Shown here piece by piece: positions 13,506-41,752 of a stretch of DNA of 64,000 nucleotides (position 1 is its first letter; each line of letters opens with the position of its first letter). Position numbers and translations under genes: made by a program. Under the pieces are notes generated by a model. That model did not search any database and was not told where the DNA came from. It saw nothing but the letters and a program-made list of their open reading frames with translations. The DNA is from Aspidiotus rigidus (taxonomy: Eukaryota; Arthropoda; Insecta; Hemiptera; Diaspididae), in assembly GCA_035079385.1 (NCBI GenBank), contig JAVHKY010000024.1:4402001-4466000 (forward strand). The letters run 5' to 3'.

Positions 13506-14178
13506 CAGCAGTCTCTTTCAACAACTGAGCGCAATCCGGATGCTCTCCATTTTCGGCAATATCGTACGCAGTCAAACCAGCGATATCCTTTGTGATGAGA
13601 ACAGCTTTATGAAATAACAGCAAGCGAACATTGTTCACAAACCCGTACTCAGCGCAAATATGTAAGGGCGTCTGCAAAATTTGTCATTATTCATAAAGCG
13701 CTCTTCATACATTCTTTTAAAAATTTTATCGACCTAATTGTACTCACTTTGCCTTCACCTCGTGATCCACATGCAATATTTGGGTTAGCTGTAGAGACAG
13801 TTGAACAAAAATCATTGATTAGGAAGTTATTTACGACACCTTGAGGAAAAAAAATAATACAAGTCTCACCACCGGATTGCAGCAATATTCTCAAGCAATT
13901 CGAATTCTCGGTCGTCGCTGCCGCGTGAAGAGGCGTCCGACCCCAAGCATCTTGGCTGTTGATATACGAAAGTTGTTCGCCACGTAGAAGATCTTCCAAA
14001 AGTTCTGCATTATCCCAAAGAGCGGCCTAAATAACGCAAATATCGTTTTCAAAGAGTCGAAAAGGAAGAGAGAAAAAGAATCACGATTGTGTGTAAGGGT
14101 TATCATTATTACCTGATGGAGTAATCGGCCAGGAAAGTCCTCTTCTTCTTGTGGATCGTCCACACTTGAAGAGGCCAT
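13506..14178 (-). CDS. Ankyrin-repeat protein, N-terminal part
   Basis: Exons: 14113-14178, 13870-14026, 13748-13788, 13506-13671, all with GT-AG borders and matching phases (430 nt, 143 codons plus one base). The start ATG at 14178 gives MASSSVDDPQEEEDFPG. Ankyrin repeats follow: DAWGRTPLHAAATTENSNC, SGANPNIAC, GKTPLHICAEYGF and AGLTAYDIAENGEHPDC, with typical TPLH and turn Asp/Gly residues. Ankyrin repeats bind partner proteins; there is nothing here to name a pathway. The last exon ends at donor GTAAGT in phase 1, so the protein continues, but I found no convincing next exon between 13.5 and about 10 kb. The gene may extend past transposon debris toward lower coordinates. Confidence 0.8.
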
Positions 14179-18383: not shown

Positions 18384-19618
18384 CTATACAAACCAACTGA
18401 AAAGAGTATCAAAATGAATAATTCTAAGCATTTCTTCATTGTTCAGGAACGTTTTGTAGTCGTCTACTTTGATATAGTACACATCATCCGACCAACAATA
18501 CTAAAAAATTTAAGGTCTGAAATTAGTCTTCTCGTGAACAAATGAATAAATATTTTTTAAATATCCCGTTGCGGTTCTTCCTAAGGTACTTAAATTGAAA
18601 GAAAAGAACTGCTACTCAGATCGAACTCACCTGATCTAATGACCTCCCTGAGGGCTTATGCTTGAACAATACAGCGTGTTTCAAGAAATTTTTAGAAGGT
18701 AGATAATTTGCTACCATAATCAGCCTATTTCTTATGCCATTGAGTGCTTTGGTTATGCATTCCTTTTCGTCTTGAGAGAACTTCATACTTCTTAATCGAT
18801 TATCCCGGTTCTCTTCCCAATTCTGACAGATAATATTATTTTGTTTCGGCGAAGTATTTTCAAACTGTAAATTAATAAATTGTTTCCAATTACCAATTGA
18901 GAATTGAATGTAGCCGCTATAAAAATGGAGGGTAAACGCATACCCTATTTTGAGGTAGTATCGTCTGTAAATAATTATCGTCAAATGTCCCGCTAGGAAT
19001 ATTGCCTAAACTCTCAATACATTTTTTCCACGTCATCGGTTCACCTTCGATCAAAAATAATTCTACTTTTCTCCCTGCTTTTTGGACTAATAGCGCTAAC
19101 TCAAGCGCGATTGGACAGTTCCAGGTCTCTCCAATAATTGTTACCGGTCCCGTAGGTTCAATTTTATTTAAATTCTACCAAACAAAAATTTATCTGAGTT
19201 TAAGTACACACAATAATACCACTACCTGATTAAAAAAAAAAAAGATTTTTGAAAAAAAAAAAAGATTTTTGAAAAAAAAAAAAGATTTTTGAAAAAAAAA
19301 TAAGTTAGTTCTGTGGTATAGGTACGTAATTTACCTCGAACAGTTTTTCAGCAACCTTGGTTGGTGGTTCAAGTCGCTCGGTAAAAGTTGCGCAAAATGT
19401 TGGGTAGGACAATTTACTAGCTAAAGGTTTCACGAAATTAATGTCTATGGCAGGAATAAGAAATAGAGGACGTAGATTTTTCACTTCCGAGAGTTTCTTC
19501 GACCTCGTCAGAATTTCTTTAAATTGAGGTTGTTCAGTCGCGTAGTACCCAATATTGATCAAGTCTTTTACATTTATCGAAATAAAATCTCTCACATCAA
19601 GTTTTGCTAGTATTTTTC
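18384..19618 (-). other. FAS ACP remnant and thioesterase domain, catalytic triad replaced
   Basis: Exons: 19335-19618, 18944-19174, 18631-18864, 18384-18500. The start KILAKLDVRDFISIN resembles only the end of the ACP. The Gly-Met-Asp-Ser-Leu phosphopantetheine motif is absent, and the 94-nt intron before it leaves no room for one. TE is identified by NLRPLFLIPAID, GPVTIIGETWNC and IALELALLVQKAG. The nucleophile in GYSFG is Thr (GETWN), the Asp about 30 residues on is Glu (LIEGEP), and the His of GDHRTFL is Tyr (DDYKTFLNN). It ends at a TAG after LFSWFV. Confidence 0.8.
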
Positions 19619-22600
19619 CTGTTAATGTACAGAAAAAAAAAAAAAGGTAGAAAAATTAGTATGATCCCATTGTTACTGGTTACTTACGAATTTAATTTTG
19701 GCTTACTTTTACTCGTTAATTTTTCTTTAATTTCGTATAAAGATGGAGATGATTCTGTTTGCGTTTCTTCGAAGATATGTACAAGTTTTTCTAGGATGGG
19801 TTGTAACCTCTCTGAATGCTTCTCTGCGTACACTGAGATTGTTGCAAGTCCTCTTTGTCGTCTGTGCTCGGATTCTCTGAAGGCACCGCTTAATAAGCTT
19901 ACAAAATGGCAAGGGACTTTGTTGCGAGATGCGATATCGAAATTCGCCATGTATGATCCTGCTGATTCCTGAAGACAAGATAGATTGTTTAAAAATCTAT
20001 ATTCTTCAAGATACCTACCTACTCACAATCACTCTATTTTCAAACAATAATGGAAATTGTTCACATCAAAAAGAGTCGAGGAAAAATAACGTGACAAATG
20101 AATTTTTTATGGACTGTAAGTATCAGTATCCCTTCCGTTGAGCTGGTACCACAGAAATATGATTTTACCAGGAAGACGAAGAACACAGCTTCCAGGGGTG
20201 CGATATTATTCGCTTCTGTTATGAGTTCACTGGCATCTTCAATTGTTTCAGCCTTTTTCAAATTCGTCATTACAATCGTCGCATTATTTTGTACAATGAT
20301 ACGATTCACATCGTGCGAAATTTTCTGGTCCAGCGTAAAATTATCCAGCGCTATCAGAAATTTACGAATACCTCTATTAACGAGCCATTCCAATAGTTCG
20401 AACCAGAATTCAGTCCTCTTTCCGCTACCTGTCGAAATAATATTGAACGTTATTTCACTGGAAGAATCGGTAAAATTAATTATTTATTGAGCAGTCGTTG
20501 TTCACGTGTGAAGAATCGTATCACCAGAGAAAAATTCAGGAAAATTTACTTATTATAATATATGATCGGTTTGCATCCCATTTCAAAGGCTGCAGATATT
20601 TCTTCATTGGAACGTCTTTCTCATAGCAAGAATGTATTTCTTTGACGTTGGCTGTTGTTTTTTTGATTCTGCCGTAAAAAACAGTAAAAACAAAAGTAAA
20701 AATTGGTGATTAAAGTTGAATTCACCTACATAAAATTCCATACCTACACAAGCTCATAATGTTTTCAATACCTACCGTTCATTGTATTCCATGTATTTGT
20801 ATTTACTAATAATTCGCGATAAAGGTTTTATAACTCCGGCCTTGATATCCCGTTCGATTAGACCATGAAGTAGTTTTTTCTGCTCGAGTGGTAGGCGAAG
20901 GAAAGACAGTAAGTCATGAGGAGCTGTTACGTAAGCGACGGAATTTAAGAAAGTGTACAATCCTGTTGGGCAAACAAACACTCAAATGATTTTGATGAAA
21001 AAAGATGAGTAACACTGGGGTACCGACAATTTTCCTGCTCAATAATGTTGGGAAAGATAGCCATCATGCTATCCTTCGTTCAACTCCGTTAAAGAATATC
21101 TAATACACGCAATTAATTTTTATTAAAATTAAAATTATTTTCAATATTTACATGATTAAGAATTGGTGTATTACTTTTTCATTCATTATTATTAGATTTG
21201 ATAATAAAAATAATTTTTCGTTTTGAATTAATTAAATCAATAATAGAATAAAAAAATATGAAAATAAATATAATAGTTATGTTAATCATAAGTTTAAAAG
21301 AAATTGAGATCTTTTTATTTAAAAAAAAACAAAATATAAACAAATAATAATTAATATTAAAATCAAAATGTATTAAAAAACCTACTACTTTCCTGTTCTC
21401 TAACAACCTACAATACTTTTCCGCGAGCTGATGACCCATAGAGTAGTCGAATAGCTCACAAATAAAATTTAAAAAAATAATAAATAAATAAATAAAATTT
21501 AATTTTAATATAATGTAAAATTTAATATTAAATTTTTATAATTAATAATTTAACTAAATAAATCAATTATTGATTTATTATTATTTAAAAATTTTTAATA
21601 AATAAAACTTTTTTTTTTTTTTTTTTTTTTATGCGGTGATTAGTAATAAAATAAAATTTAAAATTGGTCCGTTAAAGAACCCATGAGTTTCTTTCTTCGT
21701 TCCAAACACGGCTGCTCAGCTAAGTCAAAGCCATTAGCCGTTAGCTGTTTAAATTGGAATCGCTAACGACTAATATTTTCTCTTCCCCACACTCCCTCCT
21801 CCACATTGGAGTGACCCCTCCCTACTTTCAGCCGTTAGCTTTTAGCGCTTGGTCGTTAGCCATTTTATTTTAGCCCACAATCAACTAGCTGTTAGGTAGC
21901 TAATGAGACTAGGTTAGCCGTTAGCTGATAGCCGAATCCAATCAATTTGAAGGGTTAGCTTGTAGCTGAGTTTTTAGCCAATACGACTGGCTAAGCAGCC
22001 CTGGTTTGAAGTTTCAAGGTCATCTGCACACACGTACGCACGCACGCGCACCCAAATTTTGAAATCAGATTCAGAGCAAAGACATGAAACATGTCTAAAG
22101 TAGCTAAAATTTAAAAGATTACAAGACGCGTACAATTCGAAAACATGACCCTCAGCCGTAAAAATTATATAATGACCTGAGATCAGAAGCCCGAACCAGA
22201 ATTGGGAAAGTGCTATCGGACATCAAAGAGAATAAGTGTTATGCAAGTAATACTGAGGAAGGTCATAAATCTACAGAAGAAGATTCGACTGAACGAACTG
22301 ACCTTAACAAAGGTGGGTATACGCAACATCGTAATGATAATCAAGAAGGACTCCTACACATAAAAAAGGAGAGTCGTACATTCCACAGAGTGAATTCCAA
22401 GAGGTGAAAAAGGACCCGCCCAGAAATACCATAAAAAGCTGAAAACTGTCTTGAAAGAGAACAACGTTCCTGGCAATGAAAGGAAGTTCGAGATGAACCC
22501 GGTGGCACCCAAAATTCAGGGGGCTTCTAAAACTTCACAGAGCACTAGTTAATAACATCACATTACATTTTCGCATTCTGACCATCAGACACGCGAGCTT

Positions 22601-25600
22601 ACAACAGGAGAGAACAATATGGAACGATTTCATCCATTTTTATCCCAAAAGTCTTCTTATTGTCCAAATTAGGTTCTGTATGTCCCCCGTCCTCAAGACT
22701 GAGGGGAAATAGGGTAGTACTATCCAGCCCGTATATCCAGATTAAAAATTAAATTAAGGTCTACAGTTCTCTCAAATAATTGACCAGAAGGAGACTAGCA
22801 CAAACGTAGCACGAACAATTTAACTCACTCCCGCCTTGAAATTCCATTTGGGGCGAGGGTGTTGGGGATATAGACTTCAATTGTAGTTTCGCTGAGTCTC
22901 AGCCTTATATCATACAGTTCATGGTAGGTAAGTGTTTATATTTTTAGATACATACCAAACTGCTGTTCGTCATACTGCTTGTTGGTCAAGTCAACAAACT
23001 TCCCAAATACTTTTATACAGTTAGCGATTGAGGCGATATTCTTTTGATCAGTTAGACAGTTGATCACAATGTCGACGCCTTTTCCTTTCGTAATCGTTTT
23101 AATTTGTATCTCGTATTTACACTCGTCGCGGTCCAGTATTTGCGATCTTGTCAACTGTAAAAATTATAATAAGAAGAAAACTAGCGAGCTTGAACTTGAC
23201 TTTAGAATTGGTCCTCTACGCGTTCATTTCGAACTCATCGGGCTACTAACGTTGGGGAATTCTTTCAGAAGTATTTGATTATCATCAGAATTGGATAAGA
23301 CAATGTACGGCTTTATTTTGTAATGTTGCGAAACGATTATGATGGCTTCAATCAATGACAGATTGTCCGAGTTGACGAGAACATTTTCACAAGACTGTTC
23401 CTTCACCGAGTTCAACACGAGAATGTAATACACCTGGAAACAAAAACAAGAGTTCGTTCAATTCCACGGTGAGCTATCCAGACACCAAAGGCAGCTTTGT
23501 GACTGAGTCATTGCATGAGGGATCTCACACCTTTCTCAGTCTGCCGTTACAGCTGACGAATAGGAGAATTAGGCTTGATGGGTTCAACCTTTGAACTCTA
23601 ATGAAGCTTGTCATAAAAAATAAAAAAACCCATTTCCTCTAAGAGTGTCTGCTGAACATCCCACAACTTTAAAAGTACAACTAGGCTAACTTATTTTTTG
23701 TGAAAGATTCTTCATTTTATTTCAATTGTAAAAGAGATATTATTTACCTGAAAATAGATCAGAGGGACTGTAGCTGCATCTTCAAAGGACCAATGCGGAG
23801 GGAAGTGCCAAACTAGAAGATCTTCTGATTCCTGTCGATTCTCTTGTTTATAAGAATTGTAATAACCAAGGCCCATGATTCGCTCTTTGGAATTAGTTGA
23901 CCCCGAAAATTCCAGTGCACATGAATATTCCTACAAATACATTTTTTACAATCAGTTTAGATCTTGTCGTTTTTGAAATGTGAGTAGTTGGAACAGGTAT
24001 TGTGTTGTTGATTCTGAAATCTCCTCATTCGGTTAACGTGGGTCAGAATTTGACATAATCTCAAGTCCGACATTCTACACCTATATATTGTAGTTCGGAA
24101 ACTCATGAAGCCTCAAACAAGATATTGGACTTGAGAATTAGAATCTCCTTTAGTGACTCAGCCGGAAAGAGGGGTTCACAAGGGTCAATCCTTCCCCCTT
24201 GACTGAAATATTTCCTTTAAAATACCATCAAAATTACAGAAATGGTGCAATAGTATTGCATAAATTTGAAACCACCTCCTCGAAAATTTTGTTGCCTTTG
24301 AGTTAACTCACTGTCAGGGTCAAAAGTTTGACCTTTCTCAAGTATTGGTGGAACAGACAGACCCCTTGACTGTCAACGGCTATAAACTATAAAAGTCGAC
24401 AATATTTCTTCTAACATCTACTTTAAGCGCGGATTTATGGACGACGGGTGCGAGGAATCTCCAAGAACACTAATATCCCTCTCCCCATCGTGCACCCCTA
24501 CGTCCGTGCATGTATATAAAAACTATATCTGTTATACCTTCAATCCGGTACAGTGGTCGACGTCGATTACTTTGATATCAAGATTGAAATACTTCACATT
24601 GATGTTTGAAAATCTAAGACAAAAGAAAAAAATATTAAAATAAAATCAAGTACCATTCAGCCAAAGTGAGGCGTAGAAGTACCTGAAATCATTGTGTTTC
24701 GTCACCGGTAAATTTAATTTAGAAGATTCGTCCTCGATTGATTCGAGACTCCGATAAGAACCCCATTGACCATTTTTCAACACAGATACCGGAAGATCTT
24801 GAAGTATTTGGTTCTTATAAAACGGATTTTCGACAGAAAATTTAGGTGGTTGCTCGTCCATTATGAACAAACATCTGCAGGATAGATAGTATCACCAATA
24901 ACCTTTCTGATACGACGCAACGAGAGATTCGTCTTACATACTTTATTTTTGTTTTACCTAACGTTTGGAAATTGCTTCTGTTCGGACAGCATAAATAACA
25001 AGTCAGTCGATTCGACACCATATCGTAGGAGAACGACAGGCTGCGATACGTTCGAACGTAAAACTGGAGCTAATTTCACCGGCCAATGTTCGTCAGCGAT
25101 CATTATTGGTGGTAGCGGGGAATTTGGTGCGCAGACCTGAAAACGTCAGCATCGTCAATTTGCGGCGAAACTTTTCGAACAATCCTCTTTAACACGTTTA
25201 CCCACTTTTTTAAACAACTGGACGTTGGTATCGTTGAACGTTTGGTGAATGATTTCGACGAAGGTGTTTTTATTCCCGAGCGAGTCATTATCCGTCACTG
25301 AATTTGTAACCAAAACAAACAAATTGTCTAATTTGTTTCTCAATTGATTGTGCAGTTTATTGAGACTACAAAAGCTGTTGACCAGAAGGAAATAAATATC
25401 GTCTTTAGAGTACGTCCCCGATGTAAGATCTTGGATATCTGAAAAAACTGTGTTGGACTGCAACAAAAAACGCATTTTATGGTACGTAGTACATTCATGA
25501 TAATGAAATGAACTTCTCGGCTTTGGACAAATAAAACCCCTCTGCTAATTTGACTACCCAAAATTGAAGCTATAGACAGCCACGTCGATTCGTAATGCCC

Positions 25601-28600
25601 TATTCTGTTATTAGAAGGAACCCTGACCTCTTCAATTGACCCCAAAATCCCGAAGTGCGATATTCTGAGTAGAGCTTTTATAAATTTTTTTTCTACCTAC
25701 GGAAGACTGAATATGAAGTAGACGGACTGGAAAGGAAGGGAGTAGAAAAGAAAGAATATTAGAAAGTGTGAGCGGATCCCCTTCCATCGGCTCTATTTTT
25801 GGTAGAGACAAATAATACAGCGCGAGGGTTTAAAGTCCATGGTCCCACGCCTTCCTAAATTGAGTGCAGAGTCCCGAAGTGCAATATTTTGAAAGCTATT
25901 ATGTCGAACAATATATCTTGTAGATTTTCCGAAGACTGAATATAAAATACACAGATTGGAGAGAAGCTAGAGGGTGAATCAAGTTGTAGACCCATCTAGC
26001 TTTAGTAAGCAGACTTATATAGCAAGAGTGGACACTACTCTCACATAAATTGGTGCAGTTTGCGATCAAAAAAAGATGCTTAAAATCGGAGTCAAGTCAG
26101 TATTCTCCTACAATCCTCTCCCTCCCTCACATATAGATAATTGTAAAAGAAAGAAGCTCTTAATGATCTTACTACCATAATTCAACAATTAATGCTCAAC
26201 CACAGGATTTTTACAGAAAGCTTTCGGTACACAGACCACCATCAGTACGAAGCGAAAATAGAAATGATGGAAAAACACACATAAGATTAAGAAAGAAACT
26301 AAGACTGGGGTAGGGAACTGCGACAGTGGTAAACAGGGCGGATGAATCACCAGGTTCATATATCAATCTAGATGCTTACCAACCACTATATTTGTTCTTC
26401 GAACGCGGAAACCGTCGTCTCAATCCAGGCGATTATTGTTGGAGAGACTTCCAGGAGACCGGCTTCTTCCTTCATCCACATTTCTAGCGTTGTCCTTCCC
26501 CAAATATCAAGGTATAAATCTGTACTCAGGCAACACTTGAGAACCGAACCGCCGAACTGTTCTAGGCCTATTTCCCAACATTCCTCTCGAAACCATACAA
26601 TATAGTCTGCGTAAGATCGCTGAAATGAACGTTAACACAGGTCTCATAAAGGAATTTGAGACCCCCCTCAGAATCTGTCTCCAATTTAATGTTAGCACCT
26701 TCTGGAACGAGCTTTTCAAGTGCCCGGAGGAAGTGGGGGTCCCTATCGGGTCGCCTTTAGGTTTCTTCTTGGTCGACTTGTTTATGGATCCCTTGGGGGC
26801 TGAGATCCTTGATGCAGGGCACCCTCTCCCGAGGCACGTCATTTACTAGCACCGTTATGTCGATGATGTTCTCTGCCTTTGAGACGGTCCGGAGACTGCC
26901 CTGCACGAATTTCTATCCTTCCTCAACACCCGCTACACGAGTGTGAAATTCACTTTAGAGATGATGAGAACTGAGATCAATTTTTCGGTCACTCACGGAG
27001 CAAACGTACGTTTGGTATTCATAGGAAACCCGCCCCCCTGATTCATACATCGACTCTTCTTCTTATTGCCATCCCCGACATGAAAAGGCACAGTACATGG
27101 CTGTGACCCACCGCCTTGTGTCTTTCCCTTCCGGAGTATCATAAAAGTCCTCACCACCCGAAATGAAATTCACCTGGATATTGATCGTTTGGTCCAGAAG
27201 AGAATCGTATCCATGAAACTTAGCCGGCTGACTTCCCTTCCTCCCTGTCCTCATCTGAGAGGACAAAATGGATCCGCCTCCCCTACCTGCGAAAATTCAC
27301 TTATGAATTGGCCAAACTCCGAACTTTGGGAACCCGCAGTTGGTCTCTCCCAAAAATCCCATCCCACTATCAGGGAAAATATGGGGATTATATACTTCGT
27401 GCACTGATTGTCCAGTGCTTTATGTGGAGGAGACTGAGAGGAGTTTTTTCTTGCGCTTCAAGGAGCATGAAGTCGCTTTCACCTCCAAGCTTGAAAGAAA
27501 GGGGTCTACCTATGCGGAGCACCTGATGGAGGCAGGACATTCTCTTGATCCTCTCAGGTATCAAACACTCAGATTTGAGAATTGTTTGCGCCGGAGGAAA
27601 GCTTTAGAGGATTTAAAAATCTGCCGGCATCTCGTAGAGATCGGCGATTCGGTTCTCAACAGCATGGACTTATATTTCGGTATTTTGGGCTGGACAACGC
27701 TAGAATTTCGGATGCATGAAGAAGTTGGTCCCCTGGAAGTTCTCCCCCCCCCCCCCCCGCCCGACAATAATCGCCTCGATAAGACAACGGTTTCCGCGTT
27801 CGAAGAAGAAATAGGGTGGTTGGAAAGCGTAGATGGATACTGGCTACGTTATTTTTCTTAATTATACAATGTTCCACAGCGTGGAGGATCAAACTTCTAA
27901 GACCTTGCTCTCACCTCACTATAAGCCTTCTCCAAAATTGGTAAAATTCCCTCATATTCTAAAGCTCCGGAAAGCTTGAATAATTATACCCGCTTCGAAT
28001 TGATAAAAATAATGTTTTGACGTGATAATTGAGAACTAACCTTCATTGAGTAATCTTCGTCGACAATATCGCGAAGAACTTTTGCAGAGTTGCTCATTGT
28101 ATCGATAACACGTAGTTTGCTTTTCGTTCCGTACGTAATATTGTCGTACACAAGTTGCAAACACACATTCAGGAAAGTATTTATGTTCTGGAATTGGAAA
28201 AATTTTGAAACAAGAGGTACAAACTGTGTCAATGAGGCCACTCAAAAAATGCTCTATTCAAACCTTGGTATTTGGATTGCTGTGCGAGACGAAGTGTCTT
28301 CCTTGAATGACGACTTTTTTTCGGGTATCGCGCAAAATTCGTAAATCTTCAGGGCCGTACGTGAAGTTGAATAGCTCTAGCCCGTCGCAACAAAACTTAT
28401 CGACAATGAGATCCTTCGTGAATATCAATTCATCTCCTGAGAAACAAGAAGTTTGAACTTTATCTCGGAATATTCTGTAGTAGGTTACGAACCCACAAAT
28501 TCATATTATTCTAAGTTTAAATAATTCAATGAATTTGATTTTCCAAATTACGATTAAACATAATGAAAGAGGGAAAGAGTAACTTCGAGTCGACGTAAAT

Positions 28601-31600: not shown

Positions 31601-34600
31601 GTATTAGATAGAGAAACGAGTTTAGTAATAGAAATAATTCCTTTCTATTAGCTTGGACGATTTCATCTGAATCCGAACCCTCATTAGTCGGGAACATGTT
31701 TTGAGAAAGGGTGTTTGTATGGTCGATTGTGATACCGTTGGAACGTAACGTCACTAGGGGAAGGAAGCTAGTATCTACTTTAGAGACTCGGAAAAATTTT
31801 TAGGTTTGCCACAGCTGAGTGAATTTCTTAGAGTAGGTGGTTATGAAAACTTGAAAGCTTCCCCGATTCCGGCCGGTGAGATCTGATGGCGTTCGAGCAA
31901 TCTTCGTGAAAAGTAGGACTAGGAAAGAACGAAAGTTTTCCTGGGTCAACTTTCAAGCCGTGGAGGTGGATGTCTTCGCAACCGACATGAAAGTCTGAAC
32001 TAGGCGAGGAAGATGAAGGCGAAGGCTTTGATCTACTTCGGGGACTAATTTCTAAATTGTAACGTTGCAACAAGTAAACGACATGAAATACGGTATTCAT
32101 CTTTGACGCCCTGGCGCAAAATTCTTTCATAAATTTGTGGGTATGCTAATTACAAGAGTCACCTATAGCAGCCATCATTCCTTTGATCATATCGGTCTCA
32201 TTTGATACGGCTCCTCTTTCATACGAGGCCAACACAGCTTGCTCCAACGTTAAACTGCCATCAGCATAAGCACAAGCAGTTTCTCCTAAGGAGTGTCCTA
32301 TGAAACCGTCCGCTTTGATCCCGATTGTATCCATAACTTTCACCAAACCAATCTGAGGAAAAAAAAATTGTTCAAAATTCATTTTTCTATAAAAAATTTG
32401 ATACTATAGTGATTTTCTCTTCAAGACCAAAAGTGGAACCATGATGAATGGGCCCACATAATGTAAATTAATGTCAGAGAAGGTGTGGAGAAATCTTCTA
32501 ACACATTGAGGATATCCTGATCGTTCACCTGATAAAGTAGGATTCTATACTTGAGAATTTTTAAATATCTAGCGCTCTCCTAAAACCTCGCCGCACTCTT
32601 CAATGATCCGCGTGGGGCGATATGCCTGAATGTCAGACTTAATTAGACAAAAGCGAGAGGTTCAAACGGTGGCGGTGTTAGCATTGACTGATCTGAATAC
32701 TGCCGTAAAGTACACCTACCGTACTTACATCATCTTGTTTTTCAAGTCATTCTTTTTTCTGTGTCTCTCTAGTTCTCAACCTCATTTCAACGATAGCCTT
32801 AGTTTTGAATGATAGATTTTAAAGTATCATCAATTTCAGTCATTAGATCATCAAATCAGAAAGTCTGTCCGTCTAGTAGTCTACCTGGACAGTGACAATT
32901 CCAACGAATGCATTGATGATATCATCGAAGATGGTCGGTTCATCGCTCGTTAAAACGTGGCGAATATCGATGCCTTTAGGTCTCAAAATATGGTCACATT
33001 CATCAATAACGTCAGAAAATACTGGTATCGTCAGTAAATCTTTTCCCATTCCGTTCCACTGAGATCCCATACCAGAGAATACAAACCATACTGGGCGATT
33101 TTCACCCTCGATAATCTAGACGAGTTAAAAAAGAATAAGTTAAACTTTCTCATTTTCTTGAGCATTTGTCAATTACGACACTAGACCACTTACCTCCACA
33201 TCGCTATGATTCGTAGCACCTGTAGAAGACAAGACGGTATATCCGCGGTACATGTGACTTGGTAAAGGCGATTTGAAAATGTCGTTAGTAATGGCTATAA
33301 ACTCCTTGTTTAATGGCTCGGACTCTATCTAGAAAATAGAAGCTTATGAGATATTTTACGGCGGACTCGAGCAGAGGATGACATAAAACCTTTCAAGTAC
33401 CTTCTTAATAACGCCCATTAAATCGTCTTTCATCCTGCCACAAAGTAATACTAATCGCGGCAAGTTATCGTCAGGAACCTGTTTCCTATCCGCAAAAATA
33501 TTACCTAAAACCATTATTTTATGCCCAATTCAAAAGTTCATCTTCCTAATTAATCTTGAATGTTCATTCCTACTTGTGATTTTGTTTAAATACAGCGTGG
33601 CTGACTGAACCGGTTAATGTGAACGATGTCACCCCTACCATTGATCCTGGCAGTTCTACCTCTTCGGTGACGACCTGCAAATGAAAATTTTGAGATCAGC
33701 GTGATCATTTTCTCAATCATAAATTTAAAATCGTCCTCATCTCAGTGGTACATTCATCGCTCACCTTCATCTTACCCTCAACCAGAGGTGGGATGTCAGG
33801 ATTCGGCTTCGAGTAGTGCATATTAGGAGCTATTATACCTCTATCCAAAGCTAAGCACGCTTTCACAATGGATAGGTATCCGGCTGACGTTTCTGAATGA
33901 CCAGAATGACTTTTAACGGAACCGATTAATAAAGCTCCTTCACGTTTAGTACAGAATATGTTTGAAACCGCAAGCGCTTCTCTTCTGTCGATATGCTGAA
34001 GAAAATATCGCTTATTCAGCAGGTACTTATCGAGCGCAAATTAAGAGAGAGGCAGGAAGTGTTTTTACCTTTACTGCATTAGCATCCATTTCCAAATACG
34101 AAATATCATTTGGATCAATATCTTTATGTTTGGAGTACATAGCTCGGAGTGTTTCTTCGATAAATGTTTCGTCATACCCCAAGAAAGATTTCAAACTCAA
34201 GCCTCGGTAAATTGTTTCGGAAAATAGTAACGATCCGTAACTACGTTTAGCGTCCGAAGCACGTTGTAAATATAACATTACTACGCAATCGCTGCGTCCA
34301 AAACCTTCAGCTGTGGGAAAAATTTCCAACAATTGTATGAGTAAAAGTGGCCCATGAAGACCTCGCGTGATCTTTCAAAGTCGAGACCATACCATCGGCA
34401 TCAAACGATTTCGTTATTCCGTCGGGACTAAGGTATCCCATCAATTGATAGTTGATGGATACTTTAGGATCCACGTGAGAAGCAGAACTACCAACAATGG
34501 CACCATCTATTCTTCTCGTGATTAAATTTTCGTACGCGTGTGTCAAGGCTTCTAGTCCTCCATATGCGGCGGTATAAAACGTAATACTTGGTCCTGCAGC

Positions 34601-37600
34601 CCAAAAAGTACACTCATCAACAAATTTAAACCGCGCCTCTAGCACTTATTTGTAATTGTGGATTAGAATAGGCCTACCTACCTGTTAGATTTAATGCAAA
34701 TGAAACCCTGTTGGACAACATTCCCTTGCTACCGCCAATCAGACTTAATCTCTCGACGTTAGTCGTTATTTTAATATTCTCAACCTCGCTGATACCGGAA
34801 GTGATGTAGCAGCCCACATTAGCTCCCATCAAGGAATATGGATTTATTCCTAGAACAATGAAACTTCATGTGTATTATCGAATGAGAATTAAGGCGATTT
34901 TATGAATTACAGTTGAACGCATATTGAGGGAGGAGTAATCCAATGAGTAACCTTGAGTTGTGGCTTTCATACCGGTACCTTGTTAAATAATAGTCGTTGA
35001 ACCAAAAGCGTTCGCGTACAGTTAAATTCCTTCTGCGGTACGTACTTGCAACTTAAGCACACTTTGGAGTATCCCTCCCTCAATAATCTACTTACTATCT
35101 ATAGGAGAAGAATTTAAAGGGGTTACCTGCATCGAAAACCGCTTCAAATGATGGCTCTAATACCATTCGATTTATTATGTCGATTTGGTTAGCCAAGACA
35201 GGACTTATAGCAAATACTATGTTATCATAGTGTTCAATGTTCTTAAACTTTCCTGTTCCATTTGGAATATCATCCTTGCCAACTGGAAAGATAAATTAAG
35301 GCAGATCATGAAATTCACGAAGTAGAAGTCATTGTACGTTGACGAGAAGTGAGCAGAAAATCTATCCACAATATGCATGGGTTTCGAATTTCCATTCAGC
35401 CTGGAATCCCACTTCCATAATTATTGGAAATTTTCGCATTCCAACTTCTATAATTTCTCATCACCGTTCTATTTCTCATGTTTCTGGACAGAATACAGTC
35501 TACAATAAAACTTCCTTCAATATCTTTGATACCGGTATACTTTTATCACAATTCAAAACCAATGACTGAAGAATAAAAAATCGTTCTAAAGTTGTACTGG
35601 ATACTCAATCGTCTTGATACTGAAATTATTAGAAATCCAATACTATCCACTGCCTCTATCTAGGTAAGTACTTCAGCAGCCCAAGTTTTCTTCATACCTA
35701 TGATACCTCTTTAGTACCAAATTTCATTCTATTTTTGAGACTTGGGAAACATTTTTCCTATAGAAACGGACGTCACACTCATAAGAATAAGATATCACAA
35801 TCTAAAGACTAAAGAAGAGAAAGAATAGAGATGTAGCCACAATTTTTGTCTAGAAAAGAATTAGACCTCCAGCTGCTAACAGCTGCTGGTTCGGCTACAT
35901 AACAATTAATCAGTAATCAGTAATCGCTATCATTTCACTTTCTTTTGATGACGTAACTGTATGTTGATGGCGTCACTCTACGTTAGAAAGGTCAGAATGC
36001 AAAAGGTTCAGAACTTGAATACAAGTGCAGCCATCAGCTGAAGACTCAAAGTAACATGGCTGTCCATTATAATTATGGACCCTTTTTAGCCAAACCCAAC
36101 CAAGTGACATGATAACGATCTGGCGAAAAGGAGAATCTCCACTTATAGTAAAGGAACATTTCTGTAGATTGTTATCATGTCGCTTGGTTGGGTTTGGCTA
36201 AATAGGGTTCATAATTATTATCTTCCAACTCCCTTTGGGCTATAAGTTTTACTGACTTGACTGAAGAACAGCTACCTATAGGGGGAGTGGAGACATACGC
36301 CAATTTGGTCTTATCGACCCAAAAACGCCAATATTCGAAGGAGGGATGTTTGTATTGGAAAACTAGTATGATAATTAGATTTCTCATCGAAAAATCGTCC
36401 AATTAATCTGCCGTACGAAGTAGAACGGACGTATCTACATATCCACGATCTGCGAAGAAGAGGTTCTTCAACTCCGCCAAAAATACCTTTTTTGCTTATC
36501 GTTGATTTGCAGATACGTCGATTCTATTTTGAACAGCAGTAAAATGCTAGAGCCCTATAATGTAATGCATTATTTACGTCTCAATTAGCCGTATAGGTAT
36601 TATAGCCGTATAGGTGTCATCTTATTATCCTTATAAGAAAATGGCACTTCTTCCCGATCGTCGATTTGGATACACGTCAATCCAACTTTGTACATCAGTA
36701 CCTAATATTATTATGATCAGAATTGCGATCTACGAGTATTCGGGCCGTACATCCATCCGTCAGAGCGTGGCCCCAGCACATTTTAGCGATAAGAAGTACA
36801 CTTCCGATTATACGACGTCCGATTATCCAACCAGCCGTATTATTCGACCCCAAAAATTTGCTCCCGATTATCCGACCTCTCGATTAACCGAACTTTTTCC
36901 GTATTATCCGAATCGTAATTTTTCCAACCTCTGTATTATCTGAACTCTCTCCGCGTTATCCGAACCGGATTTTTATCCGAACTTTTTATCATCCGAACCA
37001 CCCATTACCCCAGTTAGGTCGGATAATCGGAAGTGTACTGTAATTATGATGTACTTACTTATAAATAGAGATTTCTCAAAACATAAGACATTTTATAGTA
37101 AAACTTCAACATAATAAAAAAATCTTACACCTATCCCTACAATATCTGAACTCGGAAAAATTATGATCCGTCGGAAACTGATGGCTTTACCAACACATAA
37201 TTACGAAATTTATGTTTATAATATGGATCAATTCTGCGTAAAATATTTCGTTCTAAGGCTCTTTCGTACCGGTAATGATAATAGTACAGAGATCGCTATC
37301 AAATGTTTTCAGTATTTTCTTCCGGCTTATGGAAAGAGCTGCTCGAATCATTCAATATGACTCACTCAGTAATTTAAAATCCATAAAAATCTCGTACTTC
37401 ATTTTCGAAGTGTCGCAATAAACAATGATAGGTTCCTCATGTGGAACAAATTTTATCAAATACGATAAGATACAGTAAGTCTAATAAAGAATAACACACT
37501 GGCTTTTTCTCCCACTTATTTTTATTACTCGTAAGTTTAAAGAACTGACGCTCGACTGATCTGCAGTAGCCATTTATCAAGGTGAACTTTTCAAACTTGA

Positions 37601-40600
37601 ATTTAATGCATAAGTAGGTACCTACAATTTTACGACCGAAACATAGCTAGAATTTCTTGAATTTTTAAAATCTTGGGTCGAGATATGACGTTTGTACTGA
37701 GGATTGTTGAGAAAAAAAAAAAAAAAAAACACGTAGATGATAGAAATAGGTGTCACGAATTTCAAAAAATAATATTCCTATTTCGTTTAGCATCGTCTGA
37801 GAGTGGAATCGACATTAAAATTCTTCAAACATTTTATAAACATTACGTCACTGTATCGGTTTATCCTGCAACAAGCTGTCAACAATTATAGAGACCTAAC
37901 AACGGTGTTTATTAAACTGAATGATCGATTTTCGAACGTAAAAGTAGTACAGAATTTATGCATTTTGGAACAAAAAATGGATATCACACTTTTGGAAGAA
38001 ACTTTTAACAATGAAAAGAAAGCAAAGTAAGTTTTTTCGATTCGTGTTTAATCGTTACTACCTGTGAATTATGATTTTTCAGTGAAAGAAATTTATATTA
38101 TTAGGGAACAGACTATCCTAGAATGTAGGCAAATGGAAAGACGAGTCAATGACATAAGGCAAGATATCATAGCAAATAGAAAACAAGGTCCCGGTAATAT
38201 TTTATTTCATTTAATAAATAAAAGTCACCCGTATAATATTGTGGGTTTATTTTCGTTTTTTCTCGTAATGTACTTATACGGAGGAAAAAAAAATGTAATT
38301 TACGAACATCCACACCAAATTTGCGTGAATTCTTGATCGTTTTTACTATGTTTACTAACAATTGAGTCTTTGCAGAATACGGAGGAACAGAAAGTGAAGG
38401 ATACAAACAACTACAGGAACAAATACAAGCAACGGCGAGATTGGAAAAAAATATAGCTTTGGAAAGAGAACGACTGAAAATTTTATCAGGTAGAAAATTA
38501 TGATACGGTACCTAATTATTTTTAGATAGGTGTTTCACCAAAGCTGAATTTAAAATTAGAAATTATAATTATTACCGACGATGATTTTTTTGGTGCCCAT
38601 AGAACGTAATACCGACATTACGGAGATGGATTTGGATTTACTCTCTCAGGTTGTCAAAAAGTTTTCTTACTAAGTATAATAATTATGTATAATTCCCTAT
38701 ATATGAATAAAAACGATAATTCTTTTGCTTTTGGCTATTTTCTCAGTAAATGGGTATAAAGTTAATAAACAAGGTTTTCATATCACTGTAGATAGGTACC
38801 GGTTTTGTAATTGATGAATACAAAAATGAAAAAATAAAAATTAAAAAACTAGAATCCTGGTACCTACACCTAATTTTTCTCATACATAAGTAAGCAGGAA
38901 GATTTGTGGATTTCTAAGATTTTCTGAGTGTAAAAATGAAAATAAAAAGTGAGAAAAAATAATAAATCATAACTATTACCTAGGTACTTATTATTTTTTA
39001 AAAACTTATAAAAAATACACGCGAGTGCAGGTTCCACAATTTCCTAGACAGGCCTACATATTTCAGTTAAATTGAAGACGATTCAAAATTCCAATTTACA
39101 TTATTAATGAATACGTATCTATTTTTGAACCGTCAGGACTTTTTCTATTATTTGAAATAATATTCCGATGTTGATAGGTTTTCCAATATAAGAAGTGGTA
39201 CTTAGATGCAGTTCTTGATCTCTATACTTTGAAAAATTTGTTTACGTGTATTTTGGACTCATTGTAATTTCGATTCCACAATTCTTGATTTATTTACATT
39301 TGAAAATTGTTATTAAAAATATTCTCTGGTGTAAGTATAAACTCGAAACTAACTATTGAAGAATGAGAGTTTCGAAGGTGTAAAATTTTTTAGAAGTGCG
39401 TAATAAATACGAAAAATTTTGGGTGTTTGACTCGTACTTCAGAGAGTGATTTATTAGGAATCCTCCTTTGGAATGCTGCCTCATTTATAGTACCTACGTA
39501 AGGCAATAAGTTGTCCATATTATCATAAGACGGCAGCAAAATATATTACCTTTTGAATGATTTCAGACCGAATTAATTAGACTTGTGAAGCAATTGGAAA
39601 GAATACGAACTGATTTACAGAGTAATTTGCGAGAAATCCAAGTAAATTTAGATCAACAAGCCCAGGTAAATTTTTAAAATGGGTAAACTTTCGTGGAATA
39701 TAAGGCTATTATTTTAGTGTAGGTATTTGTTTTTACGGAACGCAGAGTAAAGATGAGCAATTTCTAGAGAGGGAGTGATGGTGGTCATGGTGGTCGTAGA
39801 ATGAGATTCCTAGTCAGAGACAAGAAAAATGTCAAAAAATAATATAATTGTTGACAGTTTTCTCCTCTATTACAATTTCAGGAGTACCAACGCTTAAGCG
39901 ATATGAAGCACTTGTATCAAGCAGAAATGAATTTACGAGATCGGAAGAATAAACGTCAAGGAGGTACATCGACAGGAAATCTTCCAAATACTGCTAGATC
40001 TTAAGAAACATCACTCGAATAATTCATTTTACCTACCTTTTAGAAACACGGATTTTAAATCAATATTATCTTCAACATAGAAATCGTACCTTTAACTTAT
40101 TGAGATTATAATGTTATAGTTATTTACCTAATTAAAGATGGCTCCCTCAGCTGGAAACTGACTTGATATTATTTTATGGTATAAGAGTAAGTGCGGGTAT
40201 CTGCTTATTGTGTAAAACACGATACGTATTATCAAGCCTCGTTAAGAGAACATGTTTTTGTATTTTTGATAAATCAGTGAGATTTACATGAGAAAAGCCT
40301 AAGACTCTTCTGGATTTCATCGTATGTCGAATTACAAGCATACAGTTCGAAAAATCTGAGGTAAAATTCTATCCTTTTTTCTGATAAGATATCATCATGG
40401 CAGCACTAGATGCAAGAGCTCAATTTCTATGCTAAAAAAAAAACTGACGGGTCTTTAACGGGGTTGAACGAGGGTTGGTAGGGAACCTGTTTTATGGGGC
40501 ACGTGGTGACATCACAAGGCTGACATATGACGTCATCAAATTATGACGTAACGGGTCCGGACTTTAAAGCTGTATATAATACGAGAGGAACTTGGAAAAA

Positions 40601-41752
40601 ACTGATCTTCGACGTCAGCAAACTGTTACGTCACAGCCATCGGCCCCCAAGCTACCGGCCGACAAAGCTCGGAGCTCGAAATTTTTCAAGTCCCCCTCCT
40701 ATGATATATAGCTAGGCCTGTGACATCACAGTTTGATGACGAAAGCAGCCAAGAAGACCTGGTAGGATGAGTGAAACATGGGTAAAAAAAGAAAATTGAC
40801 AAAACGCCGATTCTTCGGTTATAGATATGCACAGCAAGAAGATAGATTTTCGGATGGCATGGGTAGCCACAGGACATGGTGTTTTCAAAGAATGTCTATG
40901 AAATACGGGCAGAAGGGACAAACAGAGAATTTGCATGTAGAGGTGATGCGGAAATAGCGAAGCGATGACAGAGTGCAACTTATATGCGGGGGAAGGCTTC
41001 CAGAAATGGATATTGGTAATACAATATGCTTTCTACAAGGGAGAGGGAAGAGTAAGAGCAGCGCAAACGAGTCCAGAAATGAAGACCTACAAATAACTAT
41101 GGGCTAGTATGATGTACTCTGGATAACGGCGAGTATCCTAGACCATCAGATTGTTCACCCGGAGTACTCATCAGGAAATTACACGGTACACGTGCCTACG
41201 ACAGAAAAATTTATGATCTCCTCCTGTTCCTTCTTAAAAAGAAAATTTTCGGTACGATTCAAAACAAAAAAAAAGTTCACTCCTCACAAAACCTTTTACC
41301 CTCCTCTTATTGACGAAATGGGAGAGGTATTTTCAAAAGACTCGTCGTACAGCGAGTACTTAAAAGCTTCGAAAATATAACGTTTGCCGTAGACTCTCAC
41401 TCTCGTAGGACGACAAGACAAATATTGATAGGTATGATACCGTCCTCATACATCATGTTCCTGAACTTCAGAAGCCATTTTATGAATATTCCAATTTCAC
41501 TATCACAAAAATCGAGAATTGTCAAGAAATTTATTTATCCTACACCAGTATTCCGAAACTGGGTCACCATAAGTACACATCGCGTAGCTATTGCTGACTA
41601 TACTTACATTTGTATCGGTAATTCTTTGGCCATTTACGTTCATCGTACGTTATAGGACTCTCCGAACCGTACAATTTTTGGATAAATTCGTCCAAACTAT
41701 CACATTCTGGAAATCGTCCAGATATGCCAGAGATCACTATTTCGTCCGACAT
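18384..41752 (-). CDS. Fatty acid synthase-like multidomain protein, 34 exons, most active sites lost
   Basis: Family: animal type I FAS, cytosolic, which builds fatty acids from acetyl- and malonyl-CoA. I joined 34 exons by GT-AG signals and FAS resemblance. All junctions are in phase and sum to 6504 nt, giving 2167 residues, a little shorter than the usual 2300-2450 of insect FAS. The start is ATG at 41752, beginning MSDEIVISGISGRFPE, the standard FAS N-terminus. The stop is at 18384-18386, with AATAAA-like signals some 200-300 nt beyond. Domain order is KS, MAT, DH, linker, ER, KR, ACP remnant, TE; exons are listed under the domain entries. Substitutions remove the KS, ER, KR, ACP and TE active sites, while MAT is intact. 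Because no frameshift or stop occurs, I call it a coding gene, probably a pseudoenzyme. It could still be a young pseudogene. Introns 1, R-S (25458-28040), P-Q (28437-29748) and Y-Z (20963-22955) carry transposon debris. Confidence 0.9.
19230..19302. repeat. 22-bp A-rich tandem repeat
   Basis: Three near-identical units of GATTTTTGAAAAAAAAAAAA lie within the FAS-like intron between the 18944-19174 and 19335-19618 exons. Confidence 0.8.
19713..20668 (-). other. FAS ketoreductase domain, degenerate and shortened
   Basis: Exons: 20550-20668, 20169-20428, 19713-19968. The domain normally reduces the keto group with NADPH. It is recognised by DANRSYIII, LLEWLVNRGIRKFL and AELxTEAN-like ITEANNIAPLEAVFF. 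The glycine motif GGLGGFGLEL is replaced by SGSGKRTEFWFEL. About 45 residues between VFFVFL and ESAGSYMANFDIAS, including the usual Lys and FSSxS block, are missing, and the intervening 200 bp shows no usable exon. The Tyr of the NYG motif appears as Phe (NFD) or is absent. Confidence 0.75.
20776..23930 (-). other. FAS enoyl reductase domain, nucleotide-binding glycines lost
   Basis: Exons: 23748-23930, 23251-23433, 22956-23154, 20776-20962. The domain normally reduces the enoyl intermediate with NADPH. Landmarks EYSCALEFSGS, WSFEDAATVPLIYFQ and GKGVDIVINCL match ER. The strand-turn that binds NADPH, normally HSGSGGVGQAA, reads NSDNLSLIEAI, so all its glycines are gone. IKAGVIKPLSR near the end is typical. 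Exon 23251-23433 uses donor GTTAGT and joins TTG at 23154 in phase 0; no ATG is involved. Confidence 0.82.
21707..22003. mobile_element. hAT-like MITE rich in TTAGC repeats
   Basis: The ends CACGGCTGCTCAGCTAAGTC and inverted CAGGGCTGCTTAGCCAGTC are related. The interior is full of CGTTAGC/TTAGCCGTTAGCT. The flanks GTTCCAAA and GTTTGAAG could be a worn 8-bp duplication. It lies in FAS-like intron Y-Z. Confidence 0.65.
24538..28436 (-). other. FAS central linker (pseudo-methyltransferase region)
   Basis: Exons: 28264-28436, 28041-28187, 25206-25457, 24958-25136, 24683-24874, 24538-24613. This region normally links DH to ER and holds an inactive methyltransferase fold. NVRCLFIMDEQPPKFS, NPFYKNQ and NGQWGSYRSLES match the conserved end of this linker in animal FAS. 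The 2.6-kb intron 25458-28040 contains a Penelope-like element on the other strand. The usual ER-entry block (LNFRDVM-like) that should follow is not found in 23931-24537, so about 40 residues seem missing. Confidence 0.75.
26393..27861 (+). mobile_element. Penelope-like element remnant (RT plus GIY-YIG endonuclease) with inverted end copies
   Basis: Plus-strand fragments in different frames match Penelope-like retroelements. RT: VGVPIGSPLGFFLVDLFMD at about 26730-26790 and HRYVDDVLCL with the catalytic Asp pair at about 26850-26880. GIY-YIG endonuclease: SCTDCPVLYVEETERSF, then RFKEHE and HLMEAGHSLD at about 27390-27550. Stop codons after HVIY and LCL and several frame changes show it is dead. 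The 3' end (27640-27815) recurs in inverted orientation at the 5' end (26393-26560), the inverted pseudo-LTR arrangement known in this class. A run of C lies at 27747-27762. It sits inside a FAS-like intron, antisense to that gene. Confidence 0.85.
28872..29042. mobile_element. MITE with 44-bp terminal inverted repeats
   Basis: The left 44 bp (TAAAGGGATTATATTATGAT...TATAGGATTA) reappear inverted at 28999-29042 with about six differences, including GATGGCCGGCCATC against GATGGCCGTCCAT. In a FAS-like intron. Confidence 0.75.
29151..29389. repeat. Inverted-repeat element, about 90-bp arms
   Basis: AATTGAAAACGGGAGC...AACTATGGCGGTA at the left is matched in inverse at the right (AATTGAAAACGGAAGC...AACTATGGCGGTA), continuing into GAATGAAGCGGA / GAATGAAGCAGA. 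Non-coding, MITE-like. Confidence 0.72.
29440..29640 (+). pseudogene. Possible Penelope-like GIY-YIG endonuclease scrap
   Basis: The translation ETNRQLKIRINEHKKAWEKGRSS resembles the middle of the GIY-YIG domain (ET-R-LK-R--EH). Only about 35 residues are recognisable and no RT lies nearby. It is in a FAS-like intron, next to an inverted-repeat element. Confidence 0.45.
29749..30784 (-). other. FAS dehydratase region, His and Asp retained
   Basis: Exons: 30526-30784, 30343-30451, 29990-30265, 29749-29913. The start LFIAGCQPDINELYP and YPVSRGTP match the MAT-DH junction of FAS. The dehydratase His motif HxxxGxxxxP appears as AHQIKDQYIIPP: the His and Pro are present and the Gly is Asp. The second half reads KMIWSGNWICFLDTIMKL, keeping the Asp expected in the FLDT block. 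The donor of exon 29990-30265 is a weak GTTGAA. I cannot tell whether it is active. Confidence 0.75.
30977..33328 (-). other. FAS linker and malonyl/acetyltransferase (MAT) domain, apparently intact
   Basis: Exons: linker 33401-33485 and 33194-33328; MAT 32885-33115, 32163-32352, 31357-31586, 30977-31284. MAT loads acetyl and malonyl groups from CoA onto ACP. The opening FSGMGSQWNGMGKDLL is canonical. The nucleophile is present in GFIGHSLGETAC, the Arg in SYERGA, and the His in NRAYHSRYV. ACHNASDSCTLSGP is the usual block after the active site. It is by far the best conserved part of this protein and the only domain in which every known catalytic residue is kept. Confidence 0.88.
36069..36218. 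mobile_element. 150-bp MITE with about 53-bp near-perfect inverted repeats
   Basis: Left ATAATTATGGACCC...AACCAAGTGACATGATAAC and inverted right ATAATTATGAACCC...AACCAAGCGACATGATAAC differ at about four positions, leaving a loop of only about 45 bp. The closeness of the arms suggests recent insertion. In FAS-like intron 1. Confidence 0.8.
36794..37040. mobile_element. Tigger/pogo-like MITE remnant with TTATCCGA repeats
   Basis: AGTACACTTCCGATTATACG at the left and its inverse ending CGGATAATCGGAAGTGTACT at the right form the ends. The interior carries many TTATCCGAAC variants, a pattern typical of pogo/Tigger-derived sequences. No transposase is visible. Confidence 0.6.
37425..40004 (+). CDS. 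Coiled-coil protein nested in FAS intron 1, 248 residues
   Basis: I do not recognise the family. Seven exons: 37425-37474, 37802-38026, 38105-38193, 38376-38489, 38603-38649, 39567-39665, 39882-40004. All are flanked by GT and AG, and the phases match to give one 747-nt frame. The start ATG at 37425 has A at -3 (ACAATG). The first coding exon is the least certain part. The protein is rich in Glu, Gln, Lys and Arg with heptad-like Leu/Ile spacing, for example ECRQMERRVNDIRQDI and LVKQLERIRTDLQSN, so mostly coiled coil with no signal peptide or membrane segment. It ends in a polar tail GGTSTGNLPNTARS. It lies wholly inside the 6.3-kb first intron of the FAS-like gene, on the opposite strand. 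Confidence 0.72.
40430..40730. repeat. Dispersed repeat copy near the FAS-like 5' region
   Basis: GGGAACCTGTTTTATGGGGC, several TGACGTCA-like sites and AAGTCCCCCTCCTATGATAT reproduce, in order, the block at 1100-1400. It lies about 0.9 kb downstream, in transcription sense, of the FAS-like first exon, in intron 1. Confidence 0.65.

Follow-up and report, generated by a model that had tools for sequence, protein, structure and literature searches.

A class of insect FAS paralogues that lacks the KS nucleophile and the ACP but retains an intact MAT

INTRODUCTION

The scale insect Aspidiotus rigidus carries an FAS-like gene that, as judged from its sequence, falls into a third and ancient class of insect FAS paralogues. 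We coin the name FAS III here for the clade of ACP-less, KS-dead insect FAS paralogues to which it belongs. The best reading of such a gene, to which we would give an even chance, is that its product acts as a MAT-only subunit, charging the ACP of an FAS II partner with malonyl or methylmalonyl. Genes of this kind have been retained from an early point in insect history, probably for feeding building blocks to a second, complementary synthase. Throughout this report, 'the window' denotes the whole stretch of DNA that was analysed, which is 64,000 nucleotides in length.

RESULTS

Gene structure

The gene model (Table 1) was derived from a spliced alignment of the window with a profile of three scale-insect homologues. 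Removal of six zero-length artefacts from this alignment left 34 real exons, and one exon that had been cut by a 10-bp piece was used whole from a codon-usage model. The rebuilt coding sequence comprises 6510 nt and 2169 codons, its single stop is the terminal one, and all 33 introns (69 to 6325 nt) have AG and GT borders. An earlier reading made from the sequence only had described 34 exons and 33 GT-AG introns with no stop or frameshift, which stands, whereas its count of 2167 codons is superseded by the rebuilt model.

The codon-usage model, which is homologue-free and was trained on ORFs chosen by eye, gave the same borders for 30 of the final 34 exons, a different acceptor for two, missed two and predicted three extra. 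Tblastn searches with P0001 to P0004 (three P. citri proteins and one from Parthenolecanium corni) matched 33 of the 34 exons in collinear order, including a weak match for exon 20668-20550 (E 0.32). Exon 24613-24538 was unmatched by these four queries, and its basis is the spliced alignment. Among the matches listed, three stand closest to the draft protein and match it end to end, namely two from P. citri (P0001, with 100% coverage, and P0003, both at 48% identity) and P0002 from P. corni (47%).

Table 1. Coordinates of the FAS-like gene, its domains and other features of the window.
Feature	Position	Strand	Description
FAS-like gene, coding span	18384..41752	-	34 exons and 2169 codons, from the ATG at 41752 to the stop codon 18386-18384
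Intron 1, longest of 33	35283..41607	-	6325 nt
KS exons, residues about 1-420	33470..41752	-	Ala166 at nucleophile position (codon 34567-34565); Asp299 at first His (34086-34084); second His kept at 337 (33899-33897)
MAT exons, residues about 490-815	30763..33112	-	Intact: Ser586 (32292-32290), Arg611 (32217-32215), His688 (31410-31408)
DH exons, borders approximate	28399..30675	-	His880 kept (30570-30568); HxxxGxxxxP altered; Lys at Asp partner position
ER exons, borders approximate	20602..24591	-	Dinucleotide-binding motif lost
KR exons, borders approximate	19771..20604	-	SSGKRTE in place of glycine motif; catalytic Tyr segment missing
Expected ACP site, approximate	19473..19565	-	LGxDSL-like serine motif absent; ACP largely missing
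TE-like end, exons	18387..19460	-	Thr1993, Glu2019, Tyr2146 at Ser/Asp/His triad positions
Coiled-coil-like ORF pieces inside intron 1 (by eye)	37791-40001	+	Possible exons (by eye) near 37791-38027, 38100-38190, 38369-38480, 39561-39660, 39880-40001; Pfam DUF4600 weak, below cut-off
Reverse-transcriptase-like piece and further open frame without Pfam match	26541-27861	+	Inside the intron bounded by 28041 and 25457; RVT_1 match at 26541-26846, below cut-off
Two cysteine-rich open frames, alike by eye	47024-47983, 62355-63083	+	First: Somatomedin B below cut-off
Ankyrin-repeat open frame	13694-14026	-	PF00023 and PF12796 above cut-off
42-bp tandem unit, two arrays	6628-7284

The remaining entries of Table 1 lie within introns of the gene or elsewhere in the window. 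The coiled-coil-like pieces are perhaps a nested gene on the opposite strand, and the reverse-transcriptase-like segment has the look of an old retroelement, which by eye could be Penelope-like.

State of each domain

The domain residues of the window protein were read against a live Bemisia FAS, and the functional roles of the KS, DH, ER, KR, ACP and TE residues named in Table 1 are established. Pfam recognizes KS, MAT, the KS extension and a pseudo-KR above cut-off, and ER, TE and DH below it. The same search of the window protein returned no KR and no ACP (PF00550 is absent up to E=1), and no LGxDSL-like motif occurs within its last 700 residues. An alignment of the MAT with the solved chain 2jfd_A, which is labelled fatty acid synthase and which we take to be human, spans 314 residues and contains a gap of one residue. 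Among the residues by which a working animal type I FAS is recognized, the protein has the MAT Ser, Arg and His, but it lacks the complete KS Cys-His-His set, the ACP DSL serine, the KR glycine motif and Tyr, and the TE Ser-Asp-His triad. Five of the seven FAS activities had been counted as damaged in the sequence-only reading, which is too low, because six are damaged (KS, DH, ER, KR, ACP and TE) and MAT alone is whole. With the KS nucleophile, the ACP and the KR all gone, such a protein is predicted to be one that cannot carry out fatty acid synthesis on its own chain.

A single clade of KS-dead insect FAS paralogues

Three protein searches provided 326 relatives, taken as the best 120 of each search and with their gene models used as deposited, which together with the window protein make 327 aligned rows. 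Among these listed matches, the KS Cys is missing in 44 of the 327 rows, and MAT Ser, Arg and His are all kept in 44 of 44. One clade with a FastTree support of 1.0 holds 41 of the KS-dead rows and zero KS-live rows. As listed, its members come from Hemiptera, Coleoptera and the stick insect Bacillus rossius, and two rows are without an organism name. Every one of the 41 lacks the KS nucleophile Cys (two have a gap there) and the KR Tyr, and every one keeps the MAT Ser, Arg and His. A Cys lies at most three columns from the nucleophile position in nine rows and never on it. The position is occupied by Trp in 31 rows, and by other letters in all seven scale-insect rows, including that of the window. 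The sole LGxDSL-like match in the clade, in P0034, is outside the ACP place. The window protein is placed inside the clade on KS-MAT, and it has no KS Cys, a complete MAT triad and no ACP motif, as expected for FAS III.

An IQ-TREE analysis of 52 rows from which the catalytic columns were excluded supported an 18-row sample of the clade at 100/98. A quick 87-row tree that excluded the KS columns alone united 40 clade rows with an SH-aLRT value of 99; P0048, a Diaphorina protein with a repeated segment, is one of the 41 clade rows and is absent from this tree. One clade was also obtained from KS only (support 98). A quick tree of MAT only did not recover it, in that the 18-row sample needs three changes there, of which the starred branches force only one. 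The window remains grouped with three scale-insect rows in the MAT-only tree.

Separate origins were tried in two forms and rejected by AU tests, both of which used one model in the presence of long branches. A tree that unites the dead genes of scale insects with P0204 of P. citri gave p = 0.0037, and one that unites the dead genes of Hemiptera with FAS II of the same order gave p = 6e-5. A single origin of the clade is well supported on KS-MAT sequence, and the Trp common to so many of its rows at the nucleophile position also speaks for this. On these trees, KS loss is old and clade-wide and is not an event of a single gene. Hemiptera, beetles and stick insects parted over 300 million years ago, and a split that predates their parting would exceed this age.

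Three KS-dead rows are located outside the clade (P0184, P0214 and P0239). A further protein, P0057, has a Cys at the aligned column within the odd motif EFCCSST; it is treated as KS-live in the residue counts, as one of 140 FAS II rows, and is labelled dead in the trees. P0057 (Bicyclus), P0184 (Arctia) and P0214 (Eretmocerus) all fall outside the clade, have no ACP domain listed and show decayed KS surroundings, and they keep 71/71, 66/71 and 69/71 of the conserved MAT positions, respectively. With these three, Lepidoptera and Hymenoptera perhaps show a split of this kind as well.

Constraint by domain

Conservation of each domain at the protein level was used as a stand-in for dN/dS, with positions of 95% or higher invariance across 283 KS-live rows serving as the reference. 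The mean fraction of these positions kept by the clade is 0.96 for MAT, 0.68 for KS, 0.51 for DH, 0.50 for ER, 0.42 for TE, 0.22 for KR and 0.02 for ACP. The window protein keeps 60/63 for MAT, 58/89 for KS, 19/29 for DH, 30/72 for ER, 3/12 for TE, 14/59 for KR and 0/5 for ACP.

Percent identities were also compared between dead genes and FAS I in six comparisons of matched or similar taxa. For MAT, the paired values (dead/FAS I) are 78/80, 73/77, 69/69, 87/83, 62/68 and 62/60. KS identity is lower for the dead genes in five of the six (74/86, 55/84, 58/76, 41/79 and 42/75), with Aquatica/Lamprigera (90/89) as the exception, and ER and KR identities are lower in all six. In the three scale-insect pairs that involve the window, KS identity is 54-56%, above that of ER, KR and TE. 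The dead genes of Planococcus and Parthenolecanium are 77% identical in MAT, 63% in the KR region and 59% in KS, values which indicate that the non-MAT domains are not simply free and that MAT is not the sole constrained part. The non-MAT domains are probably retained as a scaffold. By this protein-level measure, MAT is as constrained as in working synthases, and the pattern is one of selection with MAT on top and not of general decay.

MAT-defective FAS II genes as the mirror image

FAS II proteins are the nearest live relatives of FAS III on the tree. Just before the MAT His, Tyr occurs in 132 of 140 FAS II rows and in 36 of the 41 rows of the clade, and Phe in 142 of 143 others; this shared Tyr likewise places FAS III with FAS II. 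Defects at the MAT site occur, among the matches listed, in 17 of 140 KS-live FAS II rows versus 0 of 143 FAS I and outgroup rows. Sixteen of these 17 are nearly complete elsewhere (KS at least 77/90, ER at least 71/76 and KR at least 57/60), and the exception, P0218, has a decayed KR too. P0236 (3592 aa), also among the 17, may be a faulty gene model. Several of the 17 are altered at one MAT site only, and the FAS II of Galleria and of Arctopsyche have Gly in place of the MAT Ser. Changes of the Arg (P0245 and P0228) spare Ser and His, and thus some MAT activity may remain.

Both kinds of gene are present in Daktulosphaira, where P0245 keeps KS 90/90, ER 75/76, KR 58/60 and MAT 54/71, and the KS-dead P0025 keeps KS 65/90, KR 10/60 and MAT 68/71. 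A comparable pair of sisters, with supports of 0.988 and 97 in two trees, exists in P. citri and consists of P0228, in which Cys replaces the MAT Arg, and P0239, in which Ser replaces the KS Cys. P0239 has a whole MAT, a decayed KR and an ACP that is still there. The two proteins are 54% identical, so their split is not very recent.

Outside the clade, P. citri has 19 FAS II-like rows among the matches listed, which may include isoforms (P0204, P0221-P0235, P0237, P0239 and P0310); 18 of the 19 have the KS Cys and 18 of the 19 a whole MAT. It also has five KS-dead clade rows (P0001, P0003, P0004, P0126 and P0128). The FAS II-like set is a possible wax-related expansion. A whole MAT is also found in Kerria P0238, Bemisia P0240 and Lycorma P0243, and together with the P. 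citri rows these imply that an external MAT donor is not always needed. For the MAT-defective FAS II of wasps, a sawfly, a mosquito and a caddisfly, no clade row from these groups occurs among the matches listed. None of the 23 named beetle KS-live rows among the matches listed belongs to FAS II, a zero that the scope of the matches may explain and that agrees with the MAT loss printed for beetle cluster II FAS (PMC5039406).

Scale insects possess intact FAS as well. Of 13 canonical letters that were checked, P0204 of P. citri and P0238 of Kerria lacca have 12 apiece; both lack the DH Asp, which is present in just 124 of 283 KS-live rows.

DISCUSSION

Proposed function

The sequence-only reading had suggested a paralogue kept for a non-synthase role, such as that of a partner to an active FAS or of a protein that binds malonyl. 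This suggestion gains support from full-length relatives across insect orders, from synthase-level constraint on MAT only, and from intact FAS in scale insects. Since FAS III has no ACP on its chain, an intact MAT requires an acceptor elsewhere. The simplest acceptor would be the ACP of FAS II, because FAS II is the nearest live relative and is sometimes without a MAT of its own. The ACP and MAT of animal FAS dimers are known to work across chains. The MAT Arg is associated with a carboxylated extender unit, and its retention would make the unit malonyl or methylmalonyl.

In the proposed mechanism, the KS fold, although nucleophile-dead, would still dimerize with an FAS II chain or join it in a transient complex. 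The MAT would then take malonyl or methylmalonyl from CoA and pass it to the ACP of the FAS II partner, such that two complementary chains would form one synthase for cuticular hydrocarbons or wax. The sequences themselves show an intact gene, a single origin on KS-MAT, loss of the other sites, constraint on MAT and the existence of MAT-defective FAS II. From these we infer which chain is the partner, that the acyl group moves in trans, and what the extender, tissue and product of FAS III would be.

A more extensive proposal, which we advance tentatively and rate at rather less than an even chance, is that insects have a split, heterodimeric type I FAS. FAS III would give only MAT on a dead KS scaffold, and FAS II would give KS, reductases, ACP and TE. 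Such an arrangement would be hundreds of millions of years old, would have let MAT decay repeatedly in FAS II, and would have had a second origin in mealybugs (P0228/P0239).

If true, some animal FAS would depart from the homodimer of complete chains. With a MAT subunit acting in trans, insects would have a malonyl/methylmalonyl switch that sets the methyl branches of cuticular hydrocarbons and perhaps of scale-insect wax. The published readings of the group (KS unmodified, independent origins, polyketide synthase) would be amended, and a reason would be suggested why knock-down of an ACP-less paralogue alters hydrocarbons or kills. These genes would also provide a testable example of domain subfunctionalization in a megasynthase.

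Alternative explanations

The alternative that survives best, although we consider it unlikely, is a hydrolase, buffer or sensor of malonyl-CoA or methylmalonyl-CoA, whose MAT binds the acyl group or releases it to water and thereby tunes the pool. In its favour, the MAT Ser, Arg and His persist throughout the clade (41 of 41) although there is no ACP in cis. The TE Ser-Asp-His letters are moreover kept in 11 of the 41 rows, all of them beetles (11 of 13 named beetle rows), and there MAT plus TE could be a hydrolase. However, both the TE Ser and the TE Asp have disappeared from each of the seven scale-insect rows of the clade, that of the window among them, and the MAT-defective FAS II genes are left unexplained. 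Nor would a mere binder obviously need a KS that scale insects keep at 54-56%, above ER, KR and TE.

Ranked behind this, and also improbable, is a regulatory or structural partner in which the dead KS associates with the KS of a live FAS to modify chain length or activity, with MAT being mainly structural. KS partners with a plugged site are known, such as the chain-length factor of type II polyketide synthases. The KS fold of FAS III is still recognized, and Trp is found at the nucleophile position of 31 of 41 rows; yet this residue is missing in all seven scale-insect rows, and structure by itself would not require that every KS-dead row (44 of 44) keep the complete set of MAT letters.

Far less probable is an animal FAS-like polyketide synthase (AFPK) of ar-clade 3 that makes branched lipids itself, a reading that draws on the parts of the locust reports available to us, which place LmFAS3 in ar-clade 3 (PMC10764717) and describe it as ACP-less (PMC11855270). 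The KS Cys and KR Tyr are absent from 41 of 41 clade rows, and the only LGxDSL-like match (P0034) is off the ACP place; with KS Cys, KR Tyr and ACP missing, an elongation cycle on one chain is impossible by known chemistry. A stand-alone synthase or AFPK, either of which needs a live KS and an ACP on the chain, is rejected on these residues.

A pseudogene or an assembly artefact, for which long branches and weak ER and KR conservation might speak, is ruled out for practical purposes by 33 of 33 GT-AG introns, an unbroken frame, co-extensive homologues in two other scale insects and the constraint on MAT, in agreement with the earlier view that this is not a decaying pseudogene.

Comparison with known systems

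ACP-less insect FAS were known already by domain layout, and KS loss and complementarity were not found in the papers searched. In the portions available to us, Finck et al. 2016 describe cluster III FAS that lack PP (ACP) and in which DH, ER, KR and TE, but not KS and MAT, are altered, and they prefer independent origins lineage by lineage (PMC5039406). The window gene resembles their cluster III in its missing ACP, altered DH, ER, KR and TE, and present MAT, and in the occurrence of such genes in several orders. It differs in that their cluster III is reported as KS-unmodified with multiple origins, whereas the KS nucleophile is absent in 41 of 41 rows here and one origin is found on the KS-MAT and KS trees. 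By domain layout alone, cluster III would appear to be the FAS III clade.

The same portions of that article report cluster II FAS devoid of MAT from three orders (Orthoptera, Coleoptera and Diptera), including Chorthippus, which has a cluster II FAS without MAT and a cluster III FAS without PP (PMC5039406). They also cite knock-downs in Tribolium, with 100% mortality after larval injection for TC000238, whose layout is similar to cluster III, and values of 60% and 40% for the MAT-less TC15337 (PMC5039406). The dN/dS values given there, 0-0.129, span nine FAS and elongase ortholog pairs, a set that may not include cluster III (PMC5039406).

For the locust, the accessible text of Lin et al. 2024 assigns LmFAS3 to AFPK ar-clade 3 and reports that knockout of LmFAS1/LmFAS3 changed hydrocarbon profiles (PMC10764717); the words cysteine, active site and heterodimer are absent from its main text. 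According to the part consulted of a second report, LmFAS3 has no ACP and is expressed mainly in the integument, and SMART assigns all seven domains to LmFAS1 and still DH, ER and KR to LmFAS3 (PMC11855270). Like the window gene, LmFAS3 is thus an ACP-less FAS relative, to which the locust work adds integument expression and a hydrocarbon phenotype. LmFAS3 was published as a FAS-like polyketide synthase, an activity that FAS III residues disallow on one chain, although the two are compared by description only. Given the published domain content of LmFAS1 and LmFAS3, a complementary pair with a MAT-less partner, and a likeness to FAS III, fit less well in the locust.

No paper on KS loss or trans-MAT in insect FAS was found by title or abstract, in a search of mainly open-access journals. 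PMC10435230, PMC8315507 and PMC7360829 likewise contributed no decisive information. Nowhere in the literature searched are MAT-less FAS II and KS-dead, MAT-bearing paralogues joined as one enzyme. Heterodimer complementation of animal FAS has reportedly been described (Rangan 2001, Joshi 2003). Bacterial trans-AT and KS-alpha/KS-beta polyketide synthases place an acyltransferase or a dead KS on a separate chain, and they offer an analogy of mechanism only, as they are bacterial and not animal type I FAS. Insect FAS II (cluster II) shares with FAS III, in most rows of each, the Tyr before the MAT His. FAS II is KS-live (by definition here), as a rule has complete ER, KR and ACP, and is MAT-defective in 17 of 140 rows, and is therefore the reverse of the window gene.
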